A stretch of DNA of 64,000 nucleotides from Parerythrobacter jejuensis. Its GTDB lineage: Bacteria; Pseudomonadota; Alphaproteobacteria; Sphingomonadales; Sphingomonadaceae. The position numbers and the translations under genes are program-made. The notes under the pieces are model-generated. The model searched no databases. It saw only the letters and a list, made by a program, of their open reading frames with translations, and was not told the DNA's origin. The stretch lies in assembly GCF_039536765.1 (NCBI RefSeq), contig NZ_BAAAZF010000001.1, positions 2,501,501 to 2,565,500 of the forward strand. The letters are read 5' to 3'. Position 1 is the first letter of the stretch, and each line of letters starts with the position of its first letter. Positions 20,040-24,630 of the stretch are shown here, in pieces.

Positions 20040-20396
20040 ATGACGGGACGGGGCTGCGTGGAAGAATCTGGTTTCAACAAGAGGCGGGGCGAACGGAAAA
20101 ACACCGGCATTGCCGGCCGATACCGTACCGGCTCCGGCACGCCGCGAGATGTCTGGATTACCGACCTCTCGCAAACGGGTTGCCGATTTTATGACCGGTT
20201 CGGCACGATGCAACCGGGCAAAGCGCTAACGTTGCGGATCGGAACCTTCGGACCGGTTCCGGCCAAGGTTCGGTGGTGGGAAAACCACACCAATGGCGTG
20301 CAGTTCGAGGAACCCCTCCATGAGTCGGTTTTCGAACATATCTGCGAGAATTTGAGCGAAACGGTACCCGACGGTCTTGAAACCGGGGACGAGTAA
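20040..20396 (+). CDS. PilZ domain protein
   Basis: A 118-residue single-domain protein with the PilZ signatures: a cluster of arginines at the N-terminal side (KRRGERK, GRYRTG) and DLSQTGCRF, matching [DN]-x-S-x-x-G. PilZ domains bind cyclic di-GMP. With no second domain it probably acts as an adaptor on motility, polysaccharide or division proteins; the partner is not visible here. No strong ribosome-binding site precedes the ATG, and a GTG at 20058 is an alternative. The 3' end faces the SPOR lipoprotein gene across a terminator. Confidence 0.85.
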   Translation: MTGRGCVEESGFNKRRGERKNTGIAGRYRTGSGTPRDVWITDLSQTGCRFYDRFGTMQPGKALTLRIGTFGPVPAKVRWWENHTNGVQFEEPLHESVFEHICENLSETVPDGLETGDE

Positions 20397-20428
20397 AGAA
20401 AACCCCTCCCGACCGAAGTCGAGAGGGG
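20395..20428 (-). terminator. Rho-independent terminator of the SPOR lipoprotein gene
   Basis: The minus-strand transcript forms CCCCTCTCGAC, loop TTCG, then GTCGGGAGGGG (20403-20428, one mismatch), followed by TTTTCTTT. The stable tetraloop and the T-run place it at the end of the minus-strand gene. Confidence 0.8.
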
Positions 20429-20465
20429 CAGTCGCTCGCTAGAGTCTTTCCAAATTCTGAAGGTG

Positions 20466-21854
20466 TCAGCGACGCGCCATGCGCACGCCGCGATCCACGG
20501 CGCCCGGCAGAGGGCGACCTTCGGCCCAGGCGATGCATCCTTGGCCGCGTGATTTGACTGTCCCGCACATGCTCTTGGCGGACGCCTGCTGGAAACCGCC
20601 AGCGTTGACGCGGTAATAGGTTTTGCCGCGGACCTTCGCCTGCGTGATGACCATGTTGTAGTCACTCAGGTTGGGGTAGCGCTTGGCATAGATGCCCCAC
20701 GCCCGGCGTGCACCGGCTTCGGAGCGGAAGCTGCCAAGCTGGACGAGGTGCGAACCGTCGGCCGAGACATTGCGCTTCGCCACGCGGGCAGGCTTGGGCG
20801 TTGCACCTTGACGTGCCGGCATGGCCTGAACGACCGGGCTGGATACGAATTTGATCGCGCTGGCGGCCACCTGGGCGACGGTTACGCCGCTCGGTGCAGG
20901 GGCCTTGAAGGCATCTTCGAAGCTTTCCGGCGACTTTACGTTCGGTGCAGCAACGGCGACTTGCGGTGTCGGCTTGGCCGGAGCGGTTCCTACCGGAACA
21001 CTATCCAGTGGCGGCAATTCGCGCGGAGCAGGTGCTGCTGCGGCAAATTCTGCGACTGGGGGCAATTCCCCTGCCGCAGGAGCGCGGGCGACCTGAGGAG
21101 CAGATGCAGCGGCTTCGGCAGCGAGCTGCTGTGCATTCGGGTTGCTGGAAAGTGCCAGCTGGACCGGTTGCCCGGCATCGGCGCGAACCGGTACATTCAA
21201 CAATCCGGCGACACGCTGCTGGAAATCTTCCGGCTTGGCCGAACGGGCCCAGTCGCTGATCCGTTGATCCAGTTCGACCGGAGCAACGTCTTCGGCAGCC
21301 ATGATCCGTGCTGCTTTCCAATTGCCCTGGAGGGCATAGGCGTAGGCCAGGTTCTGACGCAGCTTTGCCGTATTCTCGCCGCCACGAAGGGCATTGCCAA
21401 GAACATGGACACCGCGATCTGCTTCGCCAGCCAGCGCAAGCGCGAGGCCAAGATCGGAAGCGGGAATATCGTCGCGCCAGTCATCAAGGACGGCGACAGC
21501 GCGGGCATTGTCACCCTTGCCGATAGAGGCAAGCGCAAAGCCGAGTGCCGTGCGACCCGAGGTATCGCCCAGTTTCATCGCATCATCGAAGCTTGTAGCT
21601 GCCGACTGGAAACGACCTGCATCGAGATAAGCAGCACCCAGAACCCCACGATAGGCGGCATTCTGCGGCTCGGCGAGGACTGCAGCCTCGGCATTGGCGA
21701 TCGCCTTGCCCGACTGGCCTTTCTCAAGAGCGACCTGCGCTTTGTTGGCAGACAGGTCTGCACGCGGTGCCCCCTGGGCCGAGCAGCCGGTAATGGCGAG
21801 CGCGCCAAGCGCGGTCGTCAGGGCCAGTGCGGCAGTTTTCTTCGAGCGAGCCAT
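20466..21854 (-). CDS. TPR and SPOR domain lipoprotein
   Basis: A 462-residue envelope protein. The N-terminus is a signal sequence with lipobox-like ITGC at about residue 24, so it is probably a lipoprotein. Residues about 35-230 contain tetratricopeptide-like helical repeats. A Pro/Ala-rich linker follows (about 230-360), and a C-terminal SPOR domain (about 370-445, starting HLVQLGSFRSEAGARRAW) should bind denuded glycan strands at the division septum. It is followed by a terminator and lies downstream of the ribbon-helix-helix and parA genes on the same strand; the short 25-base gap suggests a shared transcript. Confidence 0.88.
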   Translation of the reverse strand: MARSKKTAALALTTALGALAITGCSAQGAPRADLSANKAQVALEKGQSGKAIANAEAAVLAEPQNAAYRGVLGAAYLDAGRFQSAATSFDDAMKLGDTSGRTALGFALASIGKGDNARAVAVLDDWRDDIPASDLGLALALAGEADRGVHVLGNALRGGENTAKLRQNLAYAYALQGNWKAARIMAAEDVAPVELDQRISDWARSAKPEDFQQRVAGLLNVPVRADAGQPVQLALSSNPNAQQLAAEAAASAPQVARAPAAGELPPVAEFAAAAPAPRELPPLDSVPVGTAPAKPTPQVAVAAPNVKSPESFEDAFKAPAPSGVTVAQVAASAIKFVSSPVVQAMPARQGATPKPARVAKRNVSADGSHLVQLGSFRSEAGARRAWGIYAKRYPNLSDYNMVITQAKVRGKTYYRVNAGGFQQASAKSMCGTVKSRGQGCIAWAEGRPLPGAVDRGVRMARR

Positions 21855-21879
21855 GGTATTTCCCCTTTAAGGTCAGGCT

Positions 21880-22470
21880 TCAGTGCCGCTGAACTTGTGC
21901 GGCGAGTGAATCGATATCCGGCATATCGTCGAGCAAGCCGTCGAGGGCTTCCGTAACGATTTGCTGGGCGCTGCGTCCTTTGACCGTGCAGGCCAGACGC
22001 AGTTTGAGATGACGGTCGGCATCAAGCCGCAGCGTGAAAGCTGCGCGCTTGCCGCGCTCGAGAGCCGAACGACGCTTACGCGTCTTGGGCTTGCGTTCCT
22101 GTGCAGGCTCGGGCGTTGCCTTGGTTTGATCGGTCGCGACCACGCGCTCGGCCAATTCCTCGCGCTGGCGATGAACTTCGGGGCGGGTTGCCTGGGCCAG
22201 TGCCTCGTCAGCTGCGCGGGCGAGCTGGCGTGCTTCCTGCTCTGCCGCTTCGTTTGCCGGTTCAGGCGTCAGATGCAGCACGTCGGCCTCCGACTGGCGC
22301 GGTGCGGGGGCTTCTTCACCCATATCGTTCCAGCCCAGATCTTCGAGATGGTCATGCGATTCGGCAGGGCCCGGCTCGAGCGGGGTCAATTGCGGGCGCA
22401 TGGCCGGCTTGGCCCCACCCTTGCGGGCGAGAAGGCTCGGATTGAGCGAGGCGAAGGAAGCTTCGGACAT
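21880..22470 (-). CDS. ParA-associated ribbon-helix-helix protein
   Basis: A 196-residue protein with an acidic and Ala-rich disordered N-terminal part, a basic stretch (KPKTRKRRSALERGKR) and a C-terminal ribbon-helix-helix-like domain (about 142-182: AAFTLRLDADRHLKLRLACT, then an SAQQIVTEALDGLL helix). The gene lies 16 bases downstream of parA. ParA partners such as ParG and omega also combine a mobile tail with a ribbon-helix-helix fold, so this may be the DNA- or cargo-binding partner. That role is inferred. The ATG at 22470 is preferred; the upstream extension would overlap parA. Confidence 0.8.
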   Translation of the reverse strand: MSEASFASLNPSLLARKGGAKPAMRPQLTPLEPGPAESHDHLEDLGWNDMGEEAPAPRQSEADVLHLTPEPANEAAEQEARQLARAADEALAQATRPEVHRQREELAERVVATDQTKATPEPAQERKPKTRKRRSALERGKRAAFTLRLDADRHLKLRLACTVKGRSAQQIVTEALDGLLDDMPDIDSLAAQVQRH

Positions 22471-22486
22471 GGTTTCGATGCCCCGC

Positions 22487-23257
22487 TTACTGGGCCACCC
22501 GGCGGCCGAAACCACCGGTCGGACGATGCGTGCCCGGCACCTGGGATACAGAACCCGGAGCAGCAAACACCGTGCGGCGGAAATTCTTTTCAAGCCGGTC
22601 CGCGATATAGCCCCACAACGCTGTCACTTCGGCGGCACTGCGGCTGTCGGGATCGACTTCCATCACCGTGCGGCCATCGATCATCGAGGCGGCGAAATCG
22701 GTGCGGTGGTGAAGTGTAATCGGTGCCACGGTGCCATGCTGGCTCAGCGCGACGGCGGCTTCCGATGTAATCTTGGCTTTGGGCGTGGCTGCGTTGACCA
22801 CGAATACGAGCGGCTTGCCGGCACGCTCGCACAGATCGACTGTGGCCCCGACGGCGCGCAGATCATGCGGGCTGGGGCGTGTCGGGACAACAATCAGCTC
22901 TGCCACCCCGATGACGGACTGGATCGCCATTGTAATGGCTGGCGGCGTATCGATCACGGCAAGTTTGAAACCCTGCTGGCGCAAGACCTGCAGGTCGCTG
23001 GCCAGCCGTGCCACGGTGGTCTGGGCGAAGGCGGGATACTCCGCTTCGCGCTCGTTCCACCAATCGGCGAGCGACCCTTGCGGATCGATATCGATCAGAA
23101 CAACCGGTCCGGCTCCGGCGCGTTGCGCCTGGACGGCCAGATGGCCGGAAAGCGTGGTCTTGCCCGATCCGCCTTTTTGCGATGCCAGTGCCAATACGCG
23201 CACAGGACGGTCCCCCTGAATTGCTTCTATTGACCCACGCCAATCGCGGGTCGTCAT
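22487..23257 (-). CDS. parA: ParA family ATPase
   Basis: A 256-residue deviant Walker ATPase. The P-loop is QKGGSGKTT with the signature Lys, Walker A' is LIDIDPQGS and Walker B is AVIDTPPA. Such proteins position DNA or protein cargo on the nucleoid or cell pole. No parB or parS-type operon is visible nearby, so this is a lone chromosomal ParA with a ribbon-helix-helix partner directly downstream. Its promoter region is shared with a divergent SPOR protein and holds a near-consensus CtrA box. The symbol names the family; it need not be the chromosome-segregation ParA. Confidence 0.9.
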   Translation of the reverse strand: MTTRDWRGSIEAIQGDRPVRVLALASQKGGSGKTTLSGHLAVQAQRAGAGPVVLIDIDPQGSLADWWNEREAEYPAFAQTTVARLASDLQVLRQQGFKLAVIDTPPAITMAIQSVIGVAELIVVPTRPSPHDLRAVGATVDLCERAGKPLVFVVNAATPKAKITSEAAVALSQHGTVAPITLHHRTDFAASMIDGRTVMEVDPDSRSAAEVTALWGYIADRLEKNFRRTVFAAPGSVSQVPGTHRPTGGFGRRVAQ

Positions 23258-23278
23258 CGGGGGGATCGCAGGATACCC

Positions 23279-23294
23279 CTAATTTTGGGTTAAC
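23279..23294. promoter_or_regulatory. Candidate CtrA box in the parA divergent region
   Basis: CTAA-TTTTGGG-TTAAC differs by one base from the CtrA consensus TTAA-N7-TTAAC. It lies 22 bases upstream of the parA start, in the 188-base region between parA and the divergent SPOR gene. Further CTAAC and GTTAG motifs follow at 23302-23306 and 23353-23372 (GTTAG-N10-CTAAC). Regulation by the cell-cycle factor CtrA is inferred; ChpT, which phosphorylates CtrA's pathway partner, is coded in this same window. Confidence 0.5.
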
Positions 23295-23445
23295 GTTGGT
23301 CCTAACAAGAGGGCCTCGCGTCCGTCGGGGAATGGGCGGTGCTGCCGCCGCAGGTTAGAAAATCTTTGCTAACGGCCTGTTCACTATGTCACTCTATGTC
23401 CCACAGAGTTGAAGTAGAGTTACCGAGAGGGTTCGCGAGACGATC

Positions 23446-24630
23446 ATGGCATTCGCACGAGCAATGAAGGCGCTGGCTGCGCTGTCGCTTCTGGCGACAC
23501 CGGTTGCGGTGTGGGCCGACGTAAAGACCGGCGTCGATGCATGGAGTGCGGGCGACTATAGCCGCGCGGTGCGCGAATGGCGCGATCCGGCGGCCAAGGG
23601 CGATCCTGATGCGCAATTCAATATGGCGCAGGCCTATCGCTTGGGCCGCGGCGTCGAACAGAACCTGAAGCAGGCCGAGGTATTCTATGCCAAGGCGGCG
23701 GCGCAAGGCCATTTGAAGGCGGCAGACAATCTGGGGCTCTTGCTGTTTCAGAGCGGCCGACGCGAAGAAGCGATGCCTTATGTCCAGGCCGCCGGCGAAC
23801 GCGGAGATCCCCGCGCGCAATATCTGTTGGGCATTGCCCATTTCAACGGGGATCTGGTCGAGAAAGACTGGGTCCGCGCCTATGCCTTGCTGACATTGGC
23901 CAATTCTGCGGGCCTTCCGCAAGCGGCCCCGGCGATCAAGCAGATGGATGACTTCATCCCGCTCGATCAGCGCCAACAGGCCCAGCCCCTGGCGCAGAGG
24001 ATCAAGCGTGAGGCCGATGCCCGGCGGTCGAGCCAGCTAGCCGCAGCCGATCTTGGCGGCACGCCTCCTCCCCGTGTCGCGGCGGCAGTGCCCGCACGCG
24101 CCGTACCCAAGCCAAGCGACGCCCAGCGTCTGCCAACAGCGGCGACCCGTATTCCACAACCCATCGCACAAACGCCTGTCGCGCCTTCCGTGGCTGCGGC
24201 CCAAGCCGCGATTTCGGAGGCTCAACGGGTGACGGGGACGCAAAGCCCGGCCGAGGCCGGCGCAACGTTTGCAGCCCGGCAGGCTCCTGCGCGCACGACC
24301 ACGCCGCGCCCGGCGGTCGATCAACCGGTTCGCGTCGCGGCAGCGCCAACGGCAAGGGTTGCGCCTGCGCCCAGGCCCGCTCCCCGCGCTGCCACGACGA
24401 CGAGTGGGCCATGGAAAGTCCAGCTCGGCGCTTTTTCGGTCAAATCCAATGCCAACAAGCTCTGGTCGAGGCTTTCGGGCCGCAGTGCCCTGTCCGGCAA
24501 ATCGAAACTCCTGGTTCCGGCTGGCCGGCTGACCAAGCTGCAGGCGGGTGGCTATGCAAGCCGCAATGCTGCGCAGACCGCTTGCAACGCGCTGAAGCGT
24601 AGCGGCCAGGGGTGCCTCGTCACTCGCTAG
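23446..24630 (+). CDS. Sel1-repeat and SPOR domain protein
   Basis: A 394-residue exported protein with a signal peptide ending near AVWA-DVK (residue 24). Sel1/TPR-like repeats span about residues 25-170 (AKGDPDAQFNMAQAYRLGRG is a typical unit). A long Pro/Ala/Thr-rich linker follows, then a C-terminal SPOR domain (about 320-394, starting GPWKVQLGAFSVKSNANKLW) expected to bind septal peptidoglycan. It is divergent from parA. With the lipoprotein at 20466, two SPOR proteins of the same design flank the ParA pair, suggesting a joint role at the septum or in envelope remodelling. Confidence 0.88.
   Translation: MAFARAMKALAALSLLATPVAVWADVKTGVDAWSAGDYSRAVREWRDPAAKGDPDAQFNMAQAYRLGRGVEQNLKQAEVFYAKAAAQGHLKAADNLGLLLFQSGRREEAMPYVQAAGERGDPRAQYLLGIAHFNGDLVEKDWVRAYALLTLANSAGLPQAAPAIKQMDDFIPLDQRQQAQPLAQRIKREADARRSSQLAAADLGGTPPPRVAAAVPARAVPKPSDAQRLPTAATRIPQPIAQTPVAPSVAAAQAAISEAQRVTGTQSPAEAGATFAARQAPARTTTPRPAVDQPVRVAAAPTARVAPAPRPAPRAATTTSGPWKVQLGAFSVKSNANKLWSRLSGRSALSGKSKLLVPAGRLTKLQAGGYASRNAAQTACNALKRSGQGCLVTR

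Follow-up and report, generated by a model that had tools for sequence, protein, structure and literature searches.

Gene organization of the locus

In Parerythrobacter jejuensis (Alphaproteobacteria; Sphingomonadales), a gene for a ParA-type ATPase and a gene for its putative partner, a ribbon-helix-helix (RHH) protein, are located between two genes whose products carry SPOR domains. This cluster lies in a stretch of 64,000 nucleotides (contig NZ_BAAAZF010000001.1, positions 2,501,501 to 2,565,500), here called the window; feature coordinates are those of the window. The genome is a single contig of 2.9 Mb, and the locus is thus chromosomal.

The ParA gene (P0001) is found at 22487–23257 on the minus strand. 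The partner (P0002, 196 aa) is encoded directly downstream at 21880–22470, 16 bases from parA. It is followed on the same strand by a TPR and SPOR lipoprotein (P0003, 20466–21854), with the lipobox ITGC and a SPOR domain at residues 366–441. An intrinsic terminator at 20402–20429 (minus strand; a 12-pair stem, a TTCG loop and a T tail) ends this parA-RHH-SPOR operon. On the other side, a protein with Sel1 repeats, a SPOR domain and a signal peptide (P0004) is encoded divergently at 23446–24630 on the plus strand. Pfam detects the TPR of P0003 and the Sel1 repeats of P0004, and scores SPOR (PF05036) at 31.2 bits in P0003 and 55.2 bits in P0004, against a cut-off of 21. The four genes, their Pfam domains and the 16-base gap agree with the initial annotation, which was made from the sequence of the window. 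There are five SPOR genes in the whole genome, and two of them are at this locus.

A small PilZ-domain protein is encoded at 20040–20396, convergent with the operon, and the terminator region is common to both. A PilZ-domain gene adjoins the cluster in few of the compared relatives.

The initial annotation regarded the ParA as a lone one without parB. A search with TIGR00180 indeed finds no ParB in the 64-kb window; the sole ParB of the genome is at genome position 1,893,148, beside another ParA, about 630 kb from the locus. The canonical chromosomal parAB pair is therefore this distant one. The absence of parB is nevertheless not odd, since the pair resembles the type Ib pair ParF/ParG, in which the partner is itself an RHH DNA-binding protein.

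The ATPase, its partner and the promoter

By Pfam, P0001 is a ParA-type ATPase (CbiA/AAA_31 type) with no other domain. Its deviant Walker A motif KGGSGKTT (residues 28–35; 23153–23176, minus strand) is near-invariant in 82 ParAs, and the catalytic motifs KGGSGKTT, DPQGS and DTPPA are kept throughout the subfamily, consistent with ATP binding. The true start is probably the GTG at 23203 (residue 19) rather than the ATG at 23257, because alignments of relatives begin at around residue 19 and a conserved Shine-Dalgarno-like word, CAGGGGGA, lies 5' of that codon. The main finding is unaffected by this choice. From this start, the protein is about 238 aa long, and with its deviant Walker A motif and no N-terminal helix-turn-helix (HTH) it corresponds to type Ib (ParF-like) ATPases. 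The NCBIfam profile NF041546 ("ParA family partition ATPase") matches over its full length at 163.2 bits, below the curated cut-off of 180. Plasmid ParAs of the subfamily score 158–170 bits, likewise below it, placing all of them in a neighboring subfamily by that rule. A MinD/MipZ-like regulator of the membrane or FtsZ was considered and rejected. PF09140 (MipZ) scores 31.2 bits (cut-off 20.7), but only at residues 21–72 around the P-loop and below the generic AAA_31/CbiA matches; the best full-length match is a partition ParA. No amphipathic helix was seen by eye in the ParA tail.

The RHH domain of the partner is at residues about 143–183 (21922–22044, minus strand), based on the family profile and an AlphaFold model. 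From the single sequence, the signal is weak (Pfam ParG, E 0.06; PDB 1p94, E 0.15). With a profile of 23 partners it becomes clear, with PDB matches to SvtR (1.5e-5), ParG (1p94, 1.2e-4) and omega (1irq, 3e-3), which bears out the RHH assignment of the initial annotation. The AlphaFold model, for which the plasmid rows were left out of the input, contains confident helices at 151–164 and 168–182. A further, short helix covers the N-terminal peptide, and the remainder is of low confidence. A fold search with this model returns mostly RHH proteins at E-values that are not significant, a consequence of the disorder in most of the model. The basic tail of the initial annotation needs a correction: the basic stretch KPKTRKRRSALERGKR precedes the RHH domain and does not form a C-terminal tail. 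The sequence LEDLGWNDMG in the linker (residues 42–51; 22318–22347, minus strand) is nearly invariant in most of the family of the window and absent from the other Sphingomonadales families. Taken together, the partner can be classified by its sequence as a type Ib centromere-binding-type protein, which would bind DNA.

The most informative feature of the partners, absent from the initial annotation, is a conserved basic motif, A-S-L-x-x-x-L-L-A-R-K-G-x-A-x-P, within about 25 residues of the start. In P0002, it corresponds to residues 7–22, ASLNPSLLARKGGAKP (22405–22452, minus strand). L9, L13, K17, G18, A20 and P22 are invariant in the 23-sequence alignment, which includes plasmid partners. 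In a set of 43 diverse loci, the frequencies are 93% for A at -2, 95% for K, 93% for A and 97% for P; L and G served partly as anchors for this count. A protein with the motif is encoded directly after nearly every subfamily ParA of at least about 57% identity, although degenerate versions are present at a few loci, and the motif is missing beside ParAs below 47% identity. A pattern search of the host genome finds the RHH protein and two other matches. In published ParA/MinD systems, the partner uses a charged and disordered N-terminal segment to bind its ATPase and to activate it (PMC10241942, PMC12204374, PMC12462528). Based on this and on its conservation, the peptide is likely to be a ParA-docking and activating element.

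The remainder of the partner is variable. It is an RHH protein at most loci. At six loci, in four alphaproteobacterial family groups outside Sphingomonadales, a hydrophobic segment comes after the docking peptide, then a linker rich in Pro and Ala, and the C-terminal domain is SPOR (Pfam 30–55 bits in the five tested, cut-off 21). The predicted topology of this transmembrane (TM)-SPOR partner is FtsN-like: a cytoplasmic docking peptide, a transmembrane helix and a periplasmic SPOR domain. With its docking peptide covalently fused to SPOR, it is a predicted link between ParA and SPOR, separate from the gene cluster of the window. The TM-SPOR form may have arisen once, as this is not rejected (p-AU 0.67), and each of three genomes contains both a TM-SPOR pair and an RHH pair. 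Two further loci encode partners in which the peptide is joined to a different C-terminal module, helical in one and HTH-looking in the other by eye. At five loci, the RHH partner gene is followed by a third one, whose product has an N-terminal ASLARIxVRK-like stretch and what looks by eye like a PAS domain, and is perhaps a second ParA adaptor.

A conserved 28-bp element is present upstream of parA at 23265–23293 (minus strand), and includes the CtrA-like box TTAACCCAAAATTAG at 23279–23293. The box of the window is TTAA-N7-TTAG, with one mismatch to TTAA-N7-TTAA. This consensus agrees with the CtrA site of Caulobacter. TTAA-N7-TTAA was searched with up to one mismatch within 220 bp upstream, and expectations were obtained from Markov shuffles. 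In four Sphingomonadales sets, the box is found in 107/108 (7 expected), 5/6 (0.6), 16/16 (6.9) and 11/13 (3.6) sequences, counts that are not independent as the sequences are related. It is also seen in 13 of 32 loci of other Alphaproteobacteria (4.5 expected) and in none of ten plasmids (1.2 expected). The spacer of 7 is the strongest; spacers of 6 and 8 are clearly fewer, apart from a partial excess in three sets. Where genomes have diverged, the half-sites are kept and the spacer is changed. CtrA orthologs are reported in the Sphingomonadales species examined (PMC7987155). The parA promoter is thus probably controlled by CtrA and regulated in the cell cycle. A CenR site was rejected as an alternative, as CenKR is reported to be absent from Sphingomonadales and its motif is different (PMC9275681). 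Beside the box, GGGGTANNCTGCGAT (23265–23278) is almost equally conserved in the family of the window.

Distribution and plasmid ancestry

P0001 has a match (E < 1e-20) in 180 of 198 sampled Sphingomonadales genomes, mostly at 70–97% identity. Nearly all are close orthologs, and the weakest few are different ParAs. Across the class (290 genomes), further orthologs form a second band at 57–67% identity, scattered over families, after which identities drop to 47% and below. No match at E < 1e-45 is seen outside the class in 299 sampled Pseudomonadota genomes. Plasmid members of the subfamily are found in Beta-, Gamma- and Alphaproteobacteria at 48–66% identity. In seven plasmids, the docking peptide is found in an annotated protein of 80–114 aa after parA, in most cases ahead of an RHH-like segment, and most of these loci adjoin replication, recombinase or toxin-antitoxin genes. 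In the remaining three, the peptide is confined to reading frames that are not annotated as genes. A tblastn search of the plasmids with P0002 gives no match; their partners share with it no more than the short peptide and the RHH fold. Based on the ParA phylogeny, the plasmid sequences are outside the chromosomal clade that contains Sphingomonadales. The Sphingomonadales sequences are grouped, largely by family, consistent with vertical inheritance; one long-branched outsider is placed among them.

The chromosomal form is set apart from its plasmid relatives by three features: the CtrA-like box, the SPOR neighbors, and the motif FGRR in the disordered tail at the ParA C-terminus (22499–22510, minus strand). 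When K and a few neighboring residues are allowed, FGRR is present in 131/146 Sphingomonadales sequences and 12/32 other alphaproteobacterial loci, and in none of ten plasmid ParAs or six TM-SPOR-type ParAs. Four of the latter six have a GAA end instead. As a tail end, FGRR is confined to RHH-type chromosomal ParAs, examples being those of the window and of four other loci, and it may bear a loose likeness to the FLRR terminus of FtsZ.

The SPOR neighbors are co-conserved across Sphingomonadales well beyond general synteny. In the family of the window, the SPOR lipoprotein gene is adjacent in 67/69 loci and the Sel1/SPOR gene in 58/72. In 29 loci from six other Sphingomonadales family groups, the corresponding counts are 28/29 and 21/27. 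The other flanking genes known from the family of the window (PyrB, PyrC, Der, Bfr and DUF418) are found there in 0/18. The comparison of neighborhoods proposed in the initial annotation therefore supports the cluster within the order. In one family group (f5), the order is changed to parA, RHH and then the divergent SPOR pair, and the adjacency is kept.

Five genomes (four in family group f1, one in f5) have cleanly lost parA and its partner. Their two SPOR genes are still divergent neighbors, and neither a ParA nor a docking peptide was detected around them. A TTAA-N7-TTAA-like box is kept between the SPOR genes in all five, with more of the longer element in two (L188 and L189). The box thus probably belongs to the promoter rather than to an RHH operator.

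Possible functions of the cluster

The closest known system is ParF/ParG of plasmid TP228. Here too, the ParA has no N-terminal HTH and is followed by an RHH partner with a disordered, positively charged N-terminus. ParF is among the best PDB matches of P0001 (1e-14), and ParG is matched by the partner profile, as above. The present pair differs in being chromosomal, in its longer partner (196 aa against 76 aa), in its N-terminal peptide, and in the FGRR tail, the CtrA-like box and the SPOR neighbors. No centromere array was found upstream of parA, the only region searched. Pairs from small plasmids (Comamonas pZM22-2, Xanthomonas pXCV19, Deefgea, and Escherichia coli p2018-05-2CC_3) belong to the same ParA subfamily (55–66% identity), and their small RHH-type protein likewise has the docking peptide. 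However, their ParAs are 207–216 aa without FGRR, their partners are 80–114 aa, and the box and SPOR genes are absent. McdA/McdB, PomZ/PomX and other cargo systems of ParA/MinD also combine a ParA-type ATPase with a partner that has a charged activating peptide at the N-terminus and a variable cargo-binding remainder (PMC10241942, PMC12204374, PMC7993993). Unlike in those systems, the partner here is an RHH protein, or a TM-SPOR protein in relatives. MatP contains an RHH domain. MatP-ZapB and ZapT-ZauP are cases of a DNA-binding protein linking the chromosome and the division machinery (PMC7188993), but they have no ParA, and no scattered matS-like sites are shown for the present locus. A literature search found no paper combining ParA, SPOR and RHH, no description of a ParA link to SPOR proteins, and no experiment on any member of this cluster.

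With slightly less than even confidence, the locus can be explained as a ParF/ParG-like type Ib pair of plasmid ancestry, which was domesticated on the chromosome, inherited vertically and probably placed under CtrA, and which forms an operon with the SPOR lipoprotein gene beside the divergent Sel1/SPOR gene and acts in positioning by a ParA gradient. ATP-bound ParA dimers would bind the nucleoid. The RHH dimer, on its own DNA site, would present two N-terminal ASL...LLARKG peptides, whose docking on ParA would trigger ATP hydrolysis and release. The resulting ParA gradient could position the RHH-bound DNA, or other cargo held via the linker or the FGRR tail. SPOR domains bind denuded septal glycan, and the positioning may coincide with the cell-cycle stage at which SPOR proteins are loaded there. 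The CtrA-like box agrees with such a cell-cycle role.

The initial annotation proposed that the cluster could couple positioning to division or envelope growth. Co-conservation, the TM-SPOR partner and the CtrA-like box are consistent with this, and several observations weigh against it. Both Sphingomonadales SPOR proteins are exported, by a signal peptide or a lipobox, so direct contact with the cytoplasmic ParA is impossible in this organism. Physical coupling would need a further membrane link, which the TM-SPOR form has built in. The five deletion genomes indicate that the SPOR genes are independent of the pair; an obligate four-gene unit is not upheld. Outside the order, most pairs are separated from SPOR genes: 26 of 32 alphaproteobacterial loci have no SPOR neighbor, and none is seen at any RHH-type alphaproteobacterial locus or in any of eight measurable plasmids. 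The separation in relatives that the initial annotation named as refuting its proposal is therefore seen by half. The 28-bp element occurs once in the genome, without scattered chromosomal copies, and conserved RHH-type repeats are likewise missing upstream of parA.

Several of these facts suit the possibility that only timing is shared. The pair and the SPOR genes would have a common cell-cycle promoter region without a mechanistic link, the pair positioning something unrelated and the SPOR proteins acting alone on the septal wall. The retention of the SPOR pair and box after the loss of parA, the export of both SPOR proteins and the rarity of SPOR neighbors outside the order fit this explanation. 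It is still somewhat unlikely, as the rearranged f5 locus leaves the pair beside the SPOR genes, and the TM-SPOR partner joins SPOR covalently to the docking peptide of this ParA subfamily. It is improbable that the main role of the RHH protein is to control transcription of the operon and of the divergent SPOR gene, with ParA acting as co-regulator in the manner of autoregulated par operons on plasmids. RHH centromere-binding proteins such as ParG and omega do autoregulate, and the RHH gene is within the operon and adjoins the divergent promoter region. On the other hand, the promoter element is largely kept at L188 and L189, where the RHH gene is lost, which disfavors it as an RHH operator; conserved RHH-type repeats were not found upstream of parA; and simple repression would not call for a docking peptide or for an ATPase whose catalytic motifs are conserved. 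Close plasmid relatives exist and the pair can be lost, as would be expected of a remnant of an integrated plasmid without present function in the cell. Such a remnant is very improbable, however, given the retention of the match in most genomes of the order at high identity, the intact catalytic motifs and the conservation of features that only the chromosomal form has.

It might be speculated further that a plasmid-derived ParA was recruited in Alphaproteobacteria to couple the nucleoid to septal peptidoglycan, although this is rather unlikely. One docking peptide would join ParA either to DNA or, directly across the inner membrane, to the SPOR domain of an FtsN-like partner. In the first case, the partner would be an RHH protein whose CtrA-controlled locus also contains SPOR genes. 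ParA would thereby position or release septal wall proteins during chromosome segregation.

ParA-type ATPases are known to position plasmids, chromosomes, carboxysomes and chemoreceptors. The present locus is near-universal in a large order and apparently unstudied. It offers a defined ATPase, a partner, a docking peptide, a natural swap of the cargo module (RHH or TM-SPOR) and natural deletion lineages, and these features make the coordination of chromosome segregation with wall constriction directly testable in these bacteria.

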